A stretch of 44,450 nucleotides of DNA from an uncultured Erysipelotrichaceae bacterium (GTDB lineage Bacteria; Bacillota_I; Bacilli_A; RFN20; CAG-826). Positions 1-9,719 of this stretch are shown piece by piece. Position numbers and translations under genes: made by a program. Location of the stretch: assembly GCA_902777015.1 (NCBI GenBank), contig CACYSA010000007.1:1-44450 (forward strand). The letters run 5' to 3'. The first letter of the stretch is position 1, and each line of letters starts with the position of its first letter. Under the pieces are notes generated by a model that made no database searches, was not told the DNA's origin, and worked only from the letters and a program-made list of their open reading frames with translations.

Positions 1-1068
1 AATGGAGATGACTTGTGTTTGACCACGGGTGAACATGGCAGAGCCATGAGTTCTTGGTAATAAGTCGACTTGGGCGTCTAATGGACGGATTTCATCAACT
101 TTACGACCATCAGGTCTAATCTTTTCATCAGTAATTAATCTACGCACTTCTTTAGCAACGAGACCTTCTAAGGTTTCATTAACCATGTGCATGACTTTTT
201 GATGAGTCTTTTCATCTTCGTATTTACGTGTATCGTAATCATCTAAAATTTCATTTTCGATGGCGTCGATTGCGTCTTGTCTTTCTAACTTATCAAAGAT
301 AGAAATAGCTTTCTTTAAGCGTTGTTCCGCTCTATCGGTGACATCACGCTCGATTTCAGGATCACATTGATATAATTCGATTTCTCTTTTTGGTTTGCCA
401 ATTTCTTTAATGATTTCTTTTTGCCATTGGCAAAGTTTTTTGATAGCTTCATGACCAAACATTAAGGCATCAAGCATATCTTCTTCGCTCACTTGATCCG
501 CGCCAGCTTCAACCATGTTGATTGCTTCTTCAGTACCAGCAACGGCTAAGTTGATATCGCTTTGAGCTTTTTCTTCCACTGTTGGGTTGATGATGAATTT
601 GCCGTTAATTCTACCGACATAAACACCAGCGATTGGGCCATCAAATGGAATATCAGAAATACCTAAGGCTAAGCTAGAACCAAGCATCGCGGTCATTTCT
701 GGAGTGCAGTCTTGGTCAACAGACATCACTGTGTTGACGATTTGGACTTCGTTACGGAAGCCTTCGGAGAACATTGGTCTAATTGGACGGTCAATGAGTC
801 TCGCAGTTAATGTGGCGTGTTCCCCTGCACGGCCTTCTCTTCTTAAGAAGGAACCAGGAATTTTGCCAACTGCGTATTGCTTTTCTTCATAACCAACGGT
901 TAATGGGAAGAAATCACCTTCTTTAGGTTCATCTGAGCAACACGCTGTGGAAAGAACGACTGTTTCGTTTAATCTAACTAAAACCGCACCATCAGCTTGT
1001 TTAGCGATTTCGCCAGCTTCAACGACGAACTTCTTTCCTTCGAATTCTAATTCGAATACTCTTTTCAT
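1..1068 (-). CDS. pnp: Polynucleotide phosphorylase, N-terminal part (cut by window edge)
   Basis: Encodes the first 356 residues of PNPase, the phosphate-dependent 3'-5' exoribonuclease of the RNA degradosome; the gene runs off the left edge. The start [14 protein letters not shown], the run GSFLRREGR, the segment [12 protein letters not shown], and the later IRPDGR opening the second RNase PH-like domain are family hallmarks. The visible part covers the first RNase PH domain, the helical linker and the beginning of the second RNase PH domain; KH and S1 domains would lie beyond the edge. The ATG at 1066-1068 is preceded by AGAGGT at good spacing. pnp usually follows rpsO directly; here a three-gene cassette separates them and pnp has its own promoter. 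Confidence 0.97.
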
Positions 1069-1102: not shown

Positions 1103-1131
1103 ATTATACTAGAAACCATTAACTTTGTTAA
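1103..1131 (-). promoter_or_regulatory. Predicted sigma-A-type promoter of pnp
   Basis: On the minus strand, TTAACA (1126-1131) and TATAAT (1103-1108) are separated by 17 bp. The predicted transcription start is near 1096, giving a leader of about 28 nt with the ribosome binding site AGAGGT. It lies just beyond the terminator of the upstream cassette, so pnp can be expressed independently of it. Confidence 0.7.
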
Positions 1132-1214: not shown

Positions 1215-3236
1215 CTAATCTAGTGGTAATTGATTTAACCAGCGATTAACGCGATGCATCGCACCACTACATGATAGATGCATGAAGTCATCTTTATTGA
1301 AATAGTTACCAGGATAGATGTTTTCTAATTGTGTATCAAAGAAAGTATATTCATTAAATCTATTTCTAATTCTTTCTTCAAAGCTTACATAGTAAGAAGT
1401 GTCATCAATGTTATTTTGATTGTATGTATTCCATGTTAATAAAACATGGTCTTTTTGTAATGAAGTAGCGGTAACAAAATCATCAATAAAAGCAAAATCA
1501 TCGCCATTATAATCATCTAGATAATGAGTGTAATCATATGGCGATTTGTTATTGATATCATCACTTGGAATATCTTCTAAATTCATGCCGTATTTATCCC
1601 ATCTAGAATAATTAACTGCTTCAGGTAATAAAGCGGTAACACCGATTTTATCAGTGCAAGTTAAACGATAATCAGTAAATGATTTCCAGAAGAAATCTTT
1701 GATTATTTGATAATCAGCGTTTTGTAAAACATCAAAATTATATTGTAAGAATGAGACATTTCTCGCTGTTGAATAATTTAATATTGGCCAAATAGGAACA
1801 ACAACATAATCATTTGCTCCGATGATATCAGCAATCGACATCATTAATAAATAACCATGTATCCCTGCGGTTGCACCATAGATGAAGAAATTATATTTAT
1901 CGCCCCACTTATCATCTAATTGACTTAAATCATGGTTTACTCTTATCGTACTATGACCGATAAATAGGACGTTATCTTTAGACTTATCAAGGTTCATAAT
2001 CGCGTCACGATATCTCGCTAAATTGTCTTCTTCATAGTTCCATTCGTTAGCTAAAGTATTCTTATTTAAGAATAATGTCTTTAAATTAGCCATATCAAAT
2101 GACTCTTTAGTTACTTTTTCAATTGATGAATAGAATGTTAAAGAAGTAACAGCGTTCATGTTTGTGAAAGCACCATCTTCGATTTCTTTAATTGTGTCAG
2201 GAATAATGATCTTTTTAACATTAGTTAGATTATTAAAAGCACCTGATTTAATAACAGTAACTTTCTTATTATCGTTATAAGCCGGTATCACTATTTCTTC
2301 TTCGTTAATGGAGGCGGATTTAATAGCGGATTCTTGTTCATCAATATCTTCGAAAGTGAAATATTTAATATCTGAATATTTTTTCCACTGGGCGTATAAA
2401 GTTAATGAGTTATTAGCAAATAAATCATTATTGATTCTTGAACCAATACCAATACGAGTTCCACTTCCATCTTTATTTGTGTTAAGTGATTCTAAAACAT
2501 AGCCATTTTTAAAAGCATAATTAGATAAATTAATCGTATTAGGGGCTAAATAATCATCGTGAGAATAATATGGTTGATAATCAGTTTTGATTAAGGAGTT
2601 ACCCCCTACTGTCTTACCTTCGTTTAAATCATATGTAATCTTTTTGCTATCATCTTGGAAATAATTAACATAGATTTCCATATCTTTATGCATCGTTAAT
2701 TCGTATGTTTGATCATAAGAAATAGGTACACCGCTTATTTGTCTAACCCCATTACGATAAGGAGCATCAAATGTATAACATAGGAACTCTTTATTCGTTG
2801 GTGTTACTTTAAGTAAAACAATCTCACCATAATGATAAAATTCTTTCTTTGGTTCAATAGTAATATCACCGTTATTGATATCGTTATTGACGATTAATTT
2901 ATAAACACCGATTGGTTCAGATTTGATATATGCGGTAGCGTTACCCCCTAAAGAATCGATAGTTAATAACTGTTTTTCTTCATCATAATTACCAATTGAA
3001 GTGGATTTAAAAATATAGTCATCATCAAATAATAAATGGAATGAAGCGGTCTCACCTTTTTTAATTGTTTGTAATTGTTCTGAATCGCTTCTTACATGTT
3101 CATCGCATATTAATGAAATAGTCACATCTTGATTATTAGAAGCTGGTTTTTTATATTCTGGTTTAACAAAAACACATGATGATAAAAAGACCATGAGGAG
3201 CACTATTAAGGAGACAAATGAAAGATTCTTTTTCAT
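1215..3236 (-). CDS. Lipoprotein with InlB-type repeat, BspA-type LRR and C-terminal SGNH-like hydrolase domain
   Basis: A 673-residue predicted lipoprotein: hydrophobic signal and lipobox LSSC with the acylated Cys at 21. Residues about 197-286 look like a Listeria-Bacteroides (InlB B/Flg_new) repeat ending SLTLYAQWKK. Residues about 290-392 carry BspA-type LRR_5 repeats (SGAFNNLTNVKKIIIPDTIK is typical). Residues about 420-673 resemble an SGNH hydrolase: IGHS with Ser429, a GATAG segment near 454, and DFMH with Asp650 and His653. It starts 1 nt after the stop of the next gene upstream, with GGAGG inside that gene's end, so the two are translationally linked. Likely role (inference): extracellular transfer or removal of acyl groups with the MBOAT partner. 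No substrate can be named. Confidence 0.8.
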   Translation of the reverse strand: MKKNLSFVSLIVLLMVFLSSCVFVKPEYKKPASNNQDVTISLICDEHVRSDSEQLQTIKKGETASFHLLFDDDYIFKSTSIGNYDEEKQLLTIDSLGGNATAYIKSEPIGVYKLIVNNDINNGDITIEPKKEFYHYGEIVLLKVTPTNKEFLCYTFDAPYRNGVRQISGVPISYDQTYELTMHKDMEIYVNYFQDDSKKITYDLNEGKTVGGNSLIKTDYQPYYSHDDYLAPNTINLSNYAFKNGYVLESLNTNKDGSGTRIGIGSRINNDLFANNSLTLYAQWKKYSDIKYFTFEDIDEQESAIKSASINEEEIVIPAYNDNKKVTVIKSGAFNNLTNVKKIIIPDTIKEIEDGAFTNMNAVTSLTFYSSIEKVTKESFDMANLKTLFLNKNTLANEWNYEEDNLARYRDAIMNLDKSKDNVLFIGHSTIRVNHDLSQLDDKWGDKYNFFIYGATAGIHGYLLMMSIADIIGANDYVVVPIWPILNYSTARNVSFLQYNFDVLQNADYQIIKDFFWKSFTDYRLTCTDKIGVTALLPEAVNYSRWDKYGMNLEDIPSDDINNKSPYDYTHYLDDYNGDDFAFIDDFVTATSLQKDHVLLTWNTYNQNNIDDTSYYVSFEERIRNRFNEYTFFDTQLENIYPGNYFNKDDFMHLSCSGAMHRVNRWLNQLPLD

Positions 3237-3237
3237 C

Positions 3238-4689
3238 TTAATATGCCTCCAAATATGCTTTATAGAACTGCCAATTATAATCAGTTAAATAAGATTGATA
3301 AGAGGTAGACGGGACGCATATTTTAAAATCTGGATGGACTTCTTTAAACAAGCCACCGGTAAAATCAACATTGATGAGATTTGGTTGTTCTTGTTGGAGA
3401 TAGACTTTAGTTAATGAAGTAGCGTTATCAAAAGCACCATTTTCAAAATAACGGTAACTTGAAGGGACGATAACACTCTTTAATTTATTAGCCCCTTTAA
3501 AGGCGTCTTTTTTAATGCCAATGACTGGTTTATGGTTATATGTTGAAGGTAATATAATACTTTCTAAATCAATATCTTCTTTTAGGGAGATCACACTATA
3601 GCCGGTTTCCTCTTCATTTAGATTGAAATACTTAGCGGTTTCACTATCTTCATCTTCGCTTGTTTGTTCAAGAGGATATTCTGGCATTTCTAATGGCTTA
3701 AAAGAAGGTGCTTTTGCTGAAGCAAAAATATCGCGATAAATATCTTCAGCGAATAGATAGCTTCTAAGAGAAGCGCCACTATCATTGAGATGGAAATTAG
3801 AATCATAAAAATAATGAGCGTCCAAAATATATTCTTGAGGATTACCAACAACTGGACAGGTGATGTTTTCTCTTATAGACCAATAATAGGAAGATATTTT
3901 ATCGCTATTAATTACTGCCTTTTCGTTAACTGGAGAAAAAGCATAATAAAGATTGGCTTTCTTTTTAGAAACTTTTTTATGATAGTCATTAACGTATTGA
4001 TAGAAAGTATCATCAATTTCATAAGAATAATCCACCATCATCGATGGATCAAAATGTAGAGCCATTCTATTTGCTGAGCGATAAGGAATATCATTTTTAT
4101 CTAATTCTTCATGGAAGATATCACCAAATTCATTAAAATTCTTTCTTTGATAGACGCCTGTTGGATTAATGATTTCTTTTTGTTTATTTCTCTCATTAGC
4201 GAAATTAAAAATATTACCGATGACTTTGTCACGGTTATCTTTAGGTAACTTCCAAACGAGATTAAAATCATCCTCTAACGCTTTTAAAGTAGACATTGGC
4301 TCAAAATATAAGCTCGTTGATTGTGAGTTTATTTCTGGAATGATAAAAACTAAATCACCAGGATTAATATAATCAATGGCTAAATCCATCATGATTTTAG
4401 TGCCAAGCATCGCATATAAACCAAAGTTCACTACTTTATAATCTTTAAATTCTTCTTCGATTAGTTTTGAATTAAAACCAAAAGCAACATTAGAACCACC
4501 GATGAGAACAATCTTCTTTTCTTTTTTATGTTTTTGTAGATTATGAACTTTGTCCACTAAAGCGGCGTAATAAGTTTTTGCATAGACGTGTTTTTGATTA
4601 AAGAAATAAATTGAAAAGATAGCAAAAGGAGATAGTGAGATCACTAAGCCGAGAATAAATACGCTAATCTTAATCAATACCTTCTTCAT
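3238..4689 (-). CDS. Membrane-anchored SGNH (DltD/AlgJ-like) protein with C-terminal BspA-type LRR
   Basis: A 483-residue protein with one N-terminal membrane anchor (about 7-30) and no lipobox. The SGNH-like domain (about 55-325) has VLIGGSNVAFGF with nucleophile candidate Ser66, an NFG block near 88, and Asp296/His300 in DSNFH. Residues about 355-480 hold a leucine-rich-repeat module of the BspA LRR_5 type (KDAFKGANKLKSVIVPSS). SGNH partners of MBOAT proteins, such as DltD, AlgJ/AlgX and PatB, complete acyl transfer to extracellular polymers; adjacency to the MBOAT gene (2 nt gap) supports that role. The LRR fusion is unusual for such partners. It is paralogous in plan to the following lipoprotein, but with the order of SGNH and LRR reversed. 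Confidence 0.8.
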   Translation of the reverse strand: MKKVLIKISVFILGLVISLSPFAIFSIYFFNQKHVYAKTYYAALVDKVHNLQKHKKEKKIVLIGGSNVAFGFNSKLIEEEFKDYKVVNFGLYAMLGTKIMMDLAIDYINPGDLVFIIPEINSQSTSLYFEPMSTLKALEDDFNLVWKLPKDNRDKVIGNIFNFANERNKQKEIINPTGVYQRKNFNEFGDIFHEELDKNDIPYRSANRMALHFDPSMMVDYSYEIDDTFYQYVNDYHKKVSKKKANLYYAFSPVNEKAVINSDKISSYYWSIRENITCPVVGNPQEYILDAHYFYDSNFHLNDSGASLRSYLFAEDIYRDIFASAKAPSFKPLEMPEYPLEQTSEDEDSETAKYFNLNEEETGYSVISLKEDIDLESIILPSTYNHKPVIGIKKDAFKGANKLKSVIVPSSYRYFENGAFDNATSLTKVYLQQEQPNLINVDFTGGLFKEVHPDFKICVPSTSYQSYLTDYNWQFYKAYLEAY

Positions 4690-4691
4690 AA

Positions 4692-6257
4692 CTAAAAATC
4701 AAAATAAATAAATGATGATGCTTCCCCATTACCCGCTTTCAAAGATATGAAGACGAAAAGGGAAACCGCAACTAAAAGAGTGGTCATCATAAAGAGGCTA
4801 GTCTTCTTAATTATGACCTTATGACGCATAAAGGAAATAATCTTTTCTTGATATAGCGAAATGACCTTCAAAATGACCAAAAGTGTGACCAACGTCATGG
4901 AAATGACTAGGAATTTGTTCATTTCCACTAGATTTGGATCAGTGAAAAGATTGTATGTACTTGGGATATTTAGCCTTATCATATGCCAAATATAACGTAA
5001 CGCTTCTCTTAAATCTGGAGCGCGGAAGAAGATCCAACCAAAGCATACGAAAAGGAAAGTGACCACTACTTTAATTGACTTAATTAAGACATTATTTGAT
5101 GGGGGTTTAATTTCCATTCCTCTACTCTTTTTGATTTGTTTTGGTAAGGCAGTTATGACAAGTAGAACACCATGTAATAAACCCCACACAATAAATGTCC
5201 AATTAGCGCCATGCCATAATCCAGAAATGAGCCAAACAATCAAAGTGTTAATAATCCATCTCCAAATAGGAACACGGTTACCACCTAATGGAATGTAGAT
5301 ATATTTCTTTAACCAGTTTCCTAAAGTGATGTGCCATCTTCTCCAGAATTCTTGGATGGATGAGGATAGATAAGGAGTATTGAAATTCTCTTCAAGTTTG
5401 ATACCAAATAAACCACTGATACCGATAGCGATATCCATAAATCCAGAGAAGTCACAATATAATTCAATGGCGTATAGTAATGTTGTTAACACTAATGGAA
5501 GGCCGTATATCTCACTAATATTAGCGTAACTAGCATTAACATATAAATTAATGACATTAGCGATAGCGAGCTTTTTAACTAAGCCAAGAGCGATTCTAAA
5601 GAATGATTTTAGATAATCGTTATTAACAAAAGAATGTTCGCTAAATAAACCATCTTTCTTCAATTGTTCATAACTAGATATCGGCCCTTGAAATATCTTT
5701 GGAAAATAAGAGACAAATAATAAGAATTTTAAAGGGTTAGTTTCCGCTTCTACATCTCTTTTATAGCAATCAACATTATAGGCAATAAGCGAGAATGTAT
5801 AAAAAGATATTCCTACAGGAATAATAAAATTAACTGTCGCCATACTAGCGTGAAATACGGAGTTCACACTACTAGCGAAGAAGTTATAGTATTTAAGCAC
5901 TAATAAAACACTAACGTTAATGATAATTGCAATAATCATCATTGCTTTTTCATAGCCTTTTCTATTATCAGATTTATCTATTTTTAAAGGATGGAATTTA
6001 GTTTTATTACTACTATCTTTATTGAACAATTTGTACTGCGTTAATAAGGAAGTTAAATAAGTAACAATAAAACTAAAACCTAGGTATATAAGGTAAACGT
6101 AATTATTAAAACCATAGAACACTAATGAGGCGATTAATAAAACTACCCACTGAGGAACGATGGTCTTTTTAGCTAAGCGATTAATCAAATATAGAAGATA
6201 ATATGAGATAAAACTCGCTAATAAGAGGATGATAAATTCTTTTGAAAATAAATCCAT
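4692..6257 (-). CDS. MBOAT family O-acyltransferase (AlgI/DltB-like)
   Basis: A 521-residue polytopic membrane protein of the MBOAT family. Diagnostic segments are SYFPKIFQGPI (about 183-193), FWRRWHITLGNWLKKYIYIP (about 304-323, His309) and SGLWHGANWTF with the conserved membrane His349. The family moves acyl groups from a cytoplasmic donor across the membrane for O-acetylation or D-alanylation of surface polymers. It is first in a tight three-gene unit with two SGNH proteins downstream, matching the AlgI/AlgJ or DltB/DltD logic. No dltA or dltC homologue is nearby, so acetylation of a glycan is more likely than D-alanylation (inference). The ATG has no convincing ribosome binding site. It sits between rpsO and pnp, an unusual location. 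Confidence 0.92.
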   Translation of the reverse strand: MDLFSKEFIILLLASFISYYLLYLINRLAKKTIVPQWVVLLIASLVFYGFNNYVYLIYLGFSFIVTYLTSLLTQYKLFNKDSSNKTKFHPLKIDKSDNRKGYEKAMMIIAIIINVSVLLVLKYYNFFASSVNSVFHASMATVNFIIPVGISFYTFSLIAYNVDCYKRDVEAETNPLKFLLFVSYFPKIFQGPISSYEQLKKDGLFSEHSFVNNDYLKSFFRIALGLVKKLAIANVINLYVNASYANISEIYGLPLVLTTLLYAIELYCDFSGFMDIAIGISGLFGIKLEENFNTPYLSSSIQEFWRRWHITLGNWLKKYIYIPLGGNRVPIWRWIINTLIVWLISGLWHGANWTFIVWGLLHGVLLVITALPKQIKKSRGMEIKPPSNNVLIKSIKVVVTFLFVCFGWIFFRAPDLREALRYIWHMIRLNIPSTYNLFTDPNLVEMNKFLVISMTLVTLLVILKVISLYQEKIISFMRHKVIIKKTSLFMMTTLLVAVSLFVFISLKAGNGEASSFIYFDF

Positions 6258-6312: not shown

Positions 6313-6337
6313 AAAAAAACCGCCTCTCCAGCGGTTT
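6313..6337 (-). terminator. Intrinsic terminator of rpsO
   Basis: On the minus strand AAACCGC (6331-6337) pairs with GCGGTTT (6317-6323) around a 7-nt loop, followed by TTTTCT. It lies 18 nt past the rpsO stop, so rpsO transcription should end before the MBOAT cassette. Confidence 0.85.
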
Positions 6338-6355: not shown

Positions 6356-6625
6356 TTATTTTCTTAAACCTAATTCAACGATTAATTTAAGATAAGCATC
6401 ACGATCGGTTCTGATTAAGTAGTCTAATAAACTACGTCTTTGACCGACAAGAATCATTAAGCCACGTTTGCTAGCGGCATCTTTGTGATTCTTCTTTAGG
6501 TGAGCGGTTAAGGCTTTGATTTGTTCGGTTAATAAGGCAACTTGAACTTGGACAGAACCAGTGTCTTTTTCATTTTTACCAAACTTCTTAACGAGCTCGG
6601 CTTTTCTTTCTTTGGTTAACGCCAT
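6356..6625 (-). CDS. rpsO: 30S ribosomal protein S15
   Basis: An 89-residue protein of normal length that matches S15 throughout: DTGSVQVQVALLTEQI, LTAHLKKNHKDAASKRGL and the 16S-binding GQRRSLLDYL. It binds the three-way junction of helices 20-22 in 16S rRNA early in small-subunit assembly. The ATG has a strong AGGAGGG site upstream. It lies downstream of ribF and is followed by a terminator; its own promoter is predicted at the 3' end of ribF. In many bacteria pnp would follow immediately; here it is over 5 kb away. Confidence 0.98.
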   Translation of the reverse strand: MALTKERKAELVKKFGKNEKDTGSVQVQVALLTEQIKALTAHLKKNHKDAASKRGLMILVGQRRSLLDYLIRTDRDAYLKLIVELGLRK

Positions 6626-8528: not shown

Positions 8529-9719
8529 ATGAAAGCAATTAGAACAGTCTTAGCGTGTATCCGCAAAGCGGATCAAAGATATAACCTCATCAATCATGGG
8601 GATAAAATCATGATTGGTCTTTCTGGTGGTAAAGACAGTGTTGCTTTAACTTATGCTTTAAGTTTATATCAAAAGTTTTCTCATACAGATTTTGTTATTC
8701 AACCAGTGATGTTAGATTTAGGTTTTCCTGGATTTAACCCTTATGAAATGAACAAATTTTGTGAATCTTTAGGACTTAAGCTTTTAGTGGTTGATAACAC
8801 TGAAGTTTATCGTATCTTACAAATCCAACAAAAAGATAAAGAACATCTTCCTTGTTCGATATGTTCAAGAATGAAAAAAGCTTCAATGAATAAGGTCGCT
8901 AAAGAGTTAGGATTTAATAAAGTGAGCTTTGCTCATCACGCTGATGACGCGATTGAAACATATATGATGAATACCCTATTTGGTGGACGTGTTGCTTCTT
9001 TTTCTCCAAAGATGCATTTAGAACGCGCTGATATCACTTTTATTAGGCCATTAATCCATGTAAGAGAAAGCGACATCATTAAATTAGTTAAAGAAGAAAA
9101 TCTTCCTGTTTTAGCGTCAGGTTGCCCCGCTAATATGCACACTAGAAGAGAAGATATGAAACTTCTTTTAAAAGATATTTATAAGAAGTGGCCAATCGCT
9201 AAAGATAACTTGTTAACAATGTTATCTAATTATGAAAAAGAAGATATTTGGGGCAAAGAAATCTATCATCAAATCAATCAAGATGGTTTAACTTTAAAAC
9301 CAGTTATTTCCTCGATGGATATGATGCATGTCTTAGATATTAGAACTAAAGTCTTTATTCAAGAACAAAATTGTCCTTATGAAATAGAAGTCGTTGAAAA
9401 GGAAGAAAAAGAAAGTCACCACTATCTTATTTATAATAAGGAAGATATTGTTGGGACAATTAGATATCGTCAAACAGGTGAAAGAGAATTTAAGATTGAA
9501 AGATTTGCAATTCTAAAAGAATATCGCGGGCATGAATATGGTAAAAAAGCTTTTCAATATTTAGTTAATAAAATAAGCGAAGAAAATACACCTTGTACGA
9601 TTTATTTCCACGCTCAATATCAATTAATGGATTATTATAAATCTCTAGGATTCATCGAAGAAGGAGAGACCTTCATCGAAGCGGATATAAAGCACATTAA
9701 AATGCTGAAAAAATGTTAA
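8529..9719 (+). CDS. TtcA-like tRNA 2-thiolation PP-loop protein fused to a GNAT acetyltransferase domain
   Basis: A 396-residue two-domain protein. Residues 1-250 form a PP-loop ATPase of the TtcA group: SGGKDS at 32-37, CSIC with Cys109 and Cys112, and Cys199 in ASGCP, the three cysteines that hold the [4Fe-4S] cluster in TtcA. TtcA thiolates C32 of certain tRNAs using ATP. Residues about 263-396 are a GNAT domain of the YjcF/ElaA kind: LDIRTKVFIQEQNCP, VGTIRYR, and the acetyl-CoA loop EYRGHEYGKK near 331-340. The fusion is not the usual form of either protein. It is a lone plus-strand gene inside the infB-truB block, flanked by a divergent start and a shared convergent terminator. The GNAT substrate is unknown. 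Confidence 0.88.
   Translation: MKAIRTVLACIRKADQRYNLINHGDKIMIGLSGGKDSVALTYALSLYQKFSHTDFVIQPVMLDLGFPGFNPYEMNKFCESLGLKLLVVDNTEVYRILQIQQKDKEHLPCSICSRMKKASMNKVAKELGFNKVSFAHHADDAIETYMMNTLFGGRVASFSPKMHLERADITFIRPLIHVRESDIIKLVKEENLPVLASGCPANMHTRREDMKLLLKDIYKKWPIAKDNLLTMLSNYEKEDIWGKEIYHQINQDGLTLKPVISSMDMMHVLDIRTKVFIQEQNCPYEIEVVEKEEKESHHYLIYNKEDIVGTIRYRQTGEREFKIERFAILKEYRGHEYGKKAFQYLVNKISEENTPCTIYFHAQYQLMDYYKSLGFIEEGETFIEADIKHIKMLKKC

Follow-up and report, generated by a model that had tools for sequence, protein, structure and literature searches.

A three-gene cassette of an MBOAT protein and two leucine-rich-repeat SGNH proteins as a candidate surface acylation system in Firmicutes

A stretch of 44,450 nucleotides from an uncultured Erysipelotrichaceae bacterium, probably a Firmicute of the gut (assembly GCA_902777015.1, contig CACYSA010000007.1; hereafter the window), carries a three-gene cassette encoding a protein of the membrane-bound O-acyltransferase (MBOAT) family and two predicted exported proteins that combine a predicted SGNH domain with leucine-rich repeats (LRR). 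We consider it probable that these proteins together transfer an acyl group from a thioester in the cytoplasm to a surface polysaccharide that the cell exports, and by analogy we read the cassette as an AlgI/AlgJ/AlgX-like O-acylation device built from SGNH enzymes of DltD-type residue order with LRR modules. Dozens of further Firmicutes, most of them uncultured, carry the three-gene set. Surface acylation affects bacterial resistance to enzymes and antimicrobial peptides as well as recognition by the host. As a recurring module, the cassette gives part of the large BspA-type LRR protein class an enzymatic setting, and makes the choice of acceptor by MBOAT-SGNH systems a testable question.

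The cassette and its three proteins

The interval between rpsO and pnp holds three adjoining open reading frames (ORFs) on the minus strand, with intergenic gaps of 1 and 2 nt, confirming a preliminary description of the window that had placed there an MBOAT gene and genes for two exported, SGNH-like LRR proteins. The MBOAT family protein (521 residues, 4692..6257) matches PF03062 (E 2.2e-27, 96.7 bits against a gathering score of 27), and its nearest solved structures by sequence search are those of DltB, with HHAT structures matched too. For comparison we used related loci, taken as the best 80 of 120 relatives of the smaller SGNH protein (SGNH1) found in genome contigs. His349 is kept in 73 of the 75 MBOAT frames of these loci, among them fragments truncated at contig ends and split frames, and is gapped in the other two; the same counts hold for Phe516, Tyr518 and Phe521 at the C-terminus. 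These three residues belong to a FIYFDF peptide (4695..4712) conforming to the motif FXYXXF, whose Tyr carries the acyl group in PatA and DltX according to the available text of PMC12148441. Judged by its Pfam match and conserved putative catalytic His, the window protein is an MBOAT O-acyltransferase, with a C-terminal peptide that is a predicted acyl shuttle of the PatA/DltX type.

SGNH1 (483 residues, 3238..4689) consists of an N-terminal helix, predicted to be a membrane anchor, an SGNH domain (residues 38-325, 3715..4578) with Ser66, Asp296 and His300, and C-terminal LRRs of the LRR_5 family (residues 349-473, 3271..3645). The third gene encodes an LRR-SGNH lipoprotein (673 residues, 1215..3236) with a lipobox-like Cys21, a β-rich N-terminal part, LRR_5 repeats (residues 286-389, 2070..2381) and a C-terminal SGNH domain (residues 419-673, 1218..1982) with Ser429 and His653. 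Neither Pfam nor NCBIfam recognised an SGNH family in these two partners, and we therefore relied on fold models for the assignment. The predicted structures of SGNH1 (predicted local distance difference test score, pLDDT, 93.7) and of the lipoprotein (pLDDT 88.9) both show an SGNH fold beside the LRR and match SGNH/GDSL structures; both align over 240 residues with DltD, and the SGNH domains of the two proteins are homologous. On these models and the positions of Ser, Asp and His, both partners are assigned to the SGNH/GDSL superfamily. Both are also BspA-type LRR proteins, with an LRR fold and LRR_5 matches over the gathering score (E 1.5e-6 and 1.8e-11; 28.5 and 44.5 bits against 27.7). Fold, residue positions and the C-terminal shuttle motif thus support the MBOAT-SGNH acyl-transfer machinery put forward in the preliminary description, and structure prediction found the SGNH fold it expected in either partner.

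Among SGNH1 relatives, Gly64, Ser66, Gly90, Asp296, Asn298, His300 and Asn302 are invariant in all 75 proteins (the 80 fetched loci minus five with fused proteins). LRR_5 was found at E 0.01 or better in 42 of the 45 SGNH1 proteins scanned (those of the window, of locus L072 and 43 of the 75). A group of SGNH1 proteins apparently free of LRRs (436 residues, no precomputed domain) was considered and rejected, as three of its members (P0180, P0192 and P0202) show LRR_5 below threshold; P0186 (403 residues, 64% identical), which may be a cut sequence, shows no LRR_5. The lipoprotein is the most divergent of the three, with a mean column identity of 27%. The column of Cys21 is Cys in 59 of 64 lipoproteins and His653 is kept in 63; of 37 scanned (window, L072, L073 and 34 of the 64), 34 carry LRR_5 at the same threshold, 18 carry Flg_new repeats and one matches Lipase_GDSL_2 (E 0.0097).

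With the SGNH1 domain as query, a protein collection, of which a capped set of 7999 candidates was scored, yielded at least 439 proteins at E 1e-20, few of which were named by their source, and all of them hypothetical proteins among the matches listed. The corresponding search with a lipoprotein profile at E 1e-3 returned 134 proteins, many matching in the repeats only. Sequence searches of solved structures with queries A4 and A5 gave no named SGNH enzyme among the best 60 of 133 and all 15 matches, respectively; the matches listed appear to be LRR proteins or constructs that include an LRR.

Recurrence of the cassette and its place in the genome

All three genes are present in 60 of the 80 related loci. 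The remainder comprise ten loci with MBOAT and SGNH1, three with MBOAT and the two SGNH proteins fused, two with the fusion alone, three with SGNH1 and lipoprotein, and two with SGNH1 only; in all 12 loci that have neither a lipoprotein nor a full fusion, a contig end lies within 2 kb of the cassette. Four loci (L127, L146, L153 and L161) encode SGNH1-LRR-SGNH in one frame of 978-1046 residues. The fusion of L140 runs the other way round, with its N-terminal part in another frame, and may therefore be an assembly fault. Gene order varies: lipoprotein-MBOAT-SGNH1 in 30 loci, MBOAT-SGNH1-lipoprotein in 12, SGNH1-lipoprotein-MBOAT in eight and lipoprotein-SGNH1-MBOAT in four, with a few other arrangements. 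In 57 cases the MBOAT gene is followed, within the cassette, by that of SGNH1, 55 times at a distance of up to 75 nt or with an overlap by the called start. This usual placing and the invariant Ser, Asp and His positions make SGNH1 the likely obligate MBOAT partner.

Within the genus, PF03062 matches occur in four of 16 genomes, seven genes in total, and every one of the seven clusters with SGNH1 and an LRR-SGNH lipoprotein; no MBOAT match was found in the other 12 genomes, several of which are incomplete. The source genome itself has three clusters, on contigs C7 (the window), C8 and C16, and in the C8 cluster the lipoprotein gene lies ~4 kb away on the opposite strand. Together with the counts from the related loci, this speaks against a chance grouping and bears out the co-occurrence that the preliminary description had proposed as a check. 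More widely, SGNH1 was found in three of 296 genomes of an even sample of the class and in six of 392 of a phylum sample, the source genome included in each; one of the six (G480) has only a weak match, of 350 residues, beside an MBOAT. Two named strains whose genomes are not metagenome-assembled, Eubacterium plexicaudatum ASF492 and Schaedlerella arabinosiphila DSM 106076, have all three genes. A full cassette also stands on a contig labelled Candidatus Gastranaerophilales (L110), by transfer or through mis-binning of the contig.

A pnp gene was found in 13 of the 16 genomes of the genus, and its distance to rpsO could be measured in ten. This gap is 5287 nt in the source genome and 5286 nt in G004, the two that carry the cassette there; in the other eight it is 925, 282, 840, 882, 553, 1166, 153 and 839 nt. 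In G013 the cassette is on a different contig from pnp. The two edges of the cassette retain the rpsO hairpin and the stretch before pnp that occur at the 153-nt site: upstream a terminator-like hairpin (6317..6337, minus strand) also present in the empty site L091, downstream a promoter-like site (1103..1131, minus strand; 11 of 12 consensus letters) with a matching stretch in L091. The rpsO-pnp gaps of L086, L089, L094 and L087 contain other ORFs, antisense and resembling small membrane proteins of 218-242 residues, which marks the site as variable in the genus. We saw no mobile element, and no exact repeats of 9-16 nt are common to both cassette edges; we therefore name no insertion element. 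The cassette copy was thus probably gained by, or moved into, a variable site, in support of the acquisition or rearrangement suggested earlier.

The flanking genes are rpsO (6356..6625, minus strand), recognised from its translation and 95-99% identical to relatives' copies, and pnp (1..1068, minus strand), which is cut by the window start and has RNase_PH, RNase_PH_C and PNPase domains. Promoter-like sites between 900 and 6750 occur at chance level (30 observed, 30.9 expected), and we therefore claim no cassette promoter; an Rfam scan of the window gave no matches. Elsewhere in the window, a 396-residue ORF (8529-9719) reads by eye like a PP-loop tRNA-modifying ATPase fused to a GNAT acetyltransferase.

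Proposed acyl transfer and the nature of the acceptor

The anatomy of the cassette, together with published work on PatA/PatB and Dlt, suggests a path for the acyl group. The MBOAT protein would take it from acyl-CoA or another thioester, with His349 helping to load it onto Tyr518 of the FIYFDF peptide. From the peptide the group would go to Ser66 of SGNH1, the membrane-anchored protein; a glycan hydroxyl would finally receive it from either SGNH1 or the lipoprotein. Of the two SGNH proteins, the faster-evolving lipoprotein is likely the one that deals with the acceptor, as AlgX does alongside AlgJ. The LRRs would either bind the glycan or bring the SGNH proteins together; they could equally serve to join these proteins to each other as to target them to a surface polymer or host ligand, the function originally assigned to them.

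The genomic setting of relatives in the clade of the window copy points to a capsule or exopolysaccharide as the likely acceptor in this lineage. Four loci of its clade (L096, L098, L099 and L102) sit among genes for sugar dehydrogenase, epimerase, Bac_transf, glycosyltransferase, Wzy_C or TupA ATP-grasp proteins (eleven genes named by Pfam, the rest by seed matches or by eye), and the cassette of L097, from G013, adjoins a Wzy_C gene. The SGNH1 tree was built from 77 rows, each cut to its last 470 residues, after removal of duplicates, of fused rows and of four frames longer than 600 residues. In it the window protein falls in a ten-row clade (support 100/100) containing four polysaccharide-labelled rows and no GH3 label; a fifth polysaccharide-labelled row (G249) lies outside it, and 31 GH3 rows fall in a 64-row clade. 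One change on the tree accounts for both labels, a value as low being reached in none of 500 shuffles, with 41 rows, many on short contigs, having neither label. G317 and G249 have a flippase-family gene or a sugar nucleotidyltransferase gene in the cassette region. The source genome has Bac_transf genes on contigs C5 and C2, with neighbours that look by eye like polysaccharide loci, and a Big_2/VanZ protein of the C5 locus is 43% identical to two frames directly after the L096 cassette, a hint that the window cassette once belonged to such a locus.

Several observations weigh against transfer by all three proteins to a polysaccharide of the cell's own. What we observe are genes, predicted folds, residues and linkage, and from these the chemistry, the acceptor, the order of transfer and the role of the LRRs are inferred. 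Two loci, L130 and L133, have SGNH1 and lipoprotein with no MBOAT within nearly 8 kb or more on each side, and L127, L140 and L160 also have none, with a contig end within about 3 kb. No polysaccharide gene lies alongside the window copy, the Bac_transf loci of its genome being on other contigs. The seeds used for polysaccharide labels came from loci already known as such (the window's clade and G317), which leans the labels toward them, and the larger clade is linked to GH3 glycosidases and a ligase, not to polysaccharide synthesis. Finally, the nucleophile column of the lipoproteins is Ser in 46 of 64, Cys in 17 and His in one, so that some of them may not be serine transferases, and in G249, G317 and G504, where no second SGNH protein was found, the gene after SGNH1 encodes a transglutaminase-like, lipoprotein-like protein (over the Pfam cut-off in G249 and G317, below it in G504). 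The Cys variant of the nucleophile reads GCS, for example in the lipoproteins of L116 (11361-13226) and L121 (11340-13118). The transglutaminase-like lipoproteins, from three relatives of another family, occupy the third slot at 5436-8156 of L188, 5138-7648 of L189 and 10130-11806 of L190; two of these three loci also hold polysaccharide-type genes.

The variable nucleophile, the divergence of the third gene and its replacement in three relatives would all fit a lipoprotein that is an esterase or a non-catalytic adhesin, merely sharing an operon with the MBOAT/SGNH1 pair. We regard this as unlikely, as the lipoprotein is present in all seven genus clusters, almost always keeps His653, and is joined in one frame with SGNH1 in four loci, apart from the reverse-order fusion that is a possible assembly error.

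The GH3 linkage raises a different possibility, namely that the substrate is an imported or dietary glycan, a glycoside or a glycolipid in the GH3-linked clade, and for the window copy alike. In all, 62 GH3 proteins occur in 30 of the 80 loci, and other neighbours include a GHKL kinase (18 loci), a response regulator (16) and sugar transporters (11); a linked ligase suggests a special acyl group, and the two further cassette copies of the source genome belong to the GH3-linked clade. However, the window copy lies in the other clade, free of GH3 and with four of ten rows in polysaccharide loci; moreover, with 12 GH3 genes in the 1.62 Mb of the source genome, some of the association is only to be expected. 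We find this reading, with the window copy included in it, distinctly improbable. Some GH3 enzymes near larger-clade cassettes have predicted membrane segments (L072 9163-12333, L129 4192-7182 and others), and in that of L072 the C-terminal domain precedes the N-terminal domain, a permuted order. A clustered family of small membrane proteins was counted in 14 of the 80 loci; the small hydrophobic ORFs that end near the MBOAT start in 51 loci include chance frames and were set aside.

Extending the proposed transfer to a surface polysaccharide, we tentatively suggest, as a conjecture with a minority chance of being right, a two-stage Firmicute relay from the MBOAT Tyr to SGNH1 and on to the Ser or Cys of the SGNH lipoprotein, with LRRs locking the enzymes together and onto the glycan. 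Different surface glycans of gut bacteria would be decorated by exchanging, from lineage to lineage, the acyl donor, supplied through a dedicated acyl-CoA ligase, and the last enzyme of the relay, which would be of SGNH or of transglutaminase-like type.

Comparison with known acylation systems

The Dlt system (DltB, DltD, DltX, DltA and DltC) resembles the cassette in pairing an MBOAT with an SGNH protein of like fold and in its shuttle motif, which is that of DltX and in the cassette sits on the MBOAT itself; the cassette differs in its two SGNH proteins and added LRRs. A Dlt-type function, in which D-alanine from a carrier protein would be esterified onto teichoic acids or another polyanion by DltD-like proteins with added LRRs, could draw on the DltB and DltD matches and on an AMP-forming ligase family member in 23 of the 80 loci, such as that at L073 4573-6048, but is very unlikely given a DltB equivalog score of 157 bits against a cut-off of 375, linked ligases of another type, no carrier protein in the 80 loci at E 0.01 (a weak negative from a single acyl carrier protein query) and a shuttle motif on the MBOAT (no search being made for a separate DltX). 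Of the ligases linked to cassettes, three were scanned; their highest scores, each short of the cut-off, are to fatty-acyl-CoA and o-succinylbenzoate-CoA ligase models. DltA is absent among the 25 rows listed for them, and one of the three, L169, has an amino-acid adenylation row further down. Beside the window copy, where ORFs of at least 60 residues were considered and the rest of the genome was left unsearched, there is no DltA-type ligase or DltC carrier. In contrast, amino-acid adenylation and DltA models rank first for the ligase of a Dlt-like operon in G035. That operon (L079 107-5108) reads as a probable phosphopantetheinyl transferase, an adenylation ligase, a carrier, an MBOAT and a short SGNH-like protein without evident LRR, the transferase, carrier and SGNH protein being named from sequence without a search.

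PatA/PatB, to our knowledge, have no LRR. They act on peptidoglycan in O-acetylation with one SGNH partner, as described in the available text of PMC12148441, whereas the cassette has two, with LRRs, and is linked to polysaccharide or GH3 loci. CcsH/CcsI, from a proposed clostridial acetylated cellulose locus, likewise join a Firmicute MBOAT to a partner proposed to be an acetyltransferase, next to a polysaccharide synthase; CcsI belongs to the DHHW family, and the available part of that report describes no second SGNH protein or LRR with them (PMC7710045). In the literature searched, which covers subscription journals little, we found no description of an MBOAT with two LRR-bearing SGNH proteins.

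Alginate O-acetylation in Pseudomonas comes closest in layout, with the MBOAT AlgI and two SGNH-like proteins, AlgJ and AlgX, the latter carrying a carbohydrate-binding module where the cassette proteins carry LRRs. The preliminary description named MBOAT-SGNH pairs as analogues and missed this arrangement of AlgI with two partners. The acceptor in alginate acetylation is an exported polysaccharide, as would be that of the cassette. No AlgJ, AlgX or DHHW Pfam match was found in the window proteins at E 1, or in the 45 SGNH1 proteins and 37 lipoproteins at E 0.01, and the names AlgJ, AlgX and WssI do not appear among the best 50 fold matches of the SGNH models, which excludes nothing. In AlgJ, Asp and His precede Ser (Asp190-His192-Ser288), whereas in the cassette Ser66 precedes Asp296 and His300; polymer binding is weak or absent in AlgJ and present in AlgX, for which the part of terminal transferase is proposed, according to the available text of PMC4148444. 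By membership the cassette is therefore neither Dlt nor AlgJ/AlgX, and by analogy the AlgI/AlgJ/AlgX machinery of alginate may serve as its nearest working model.

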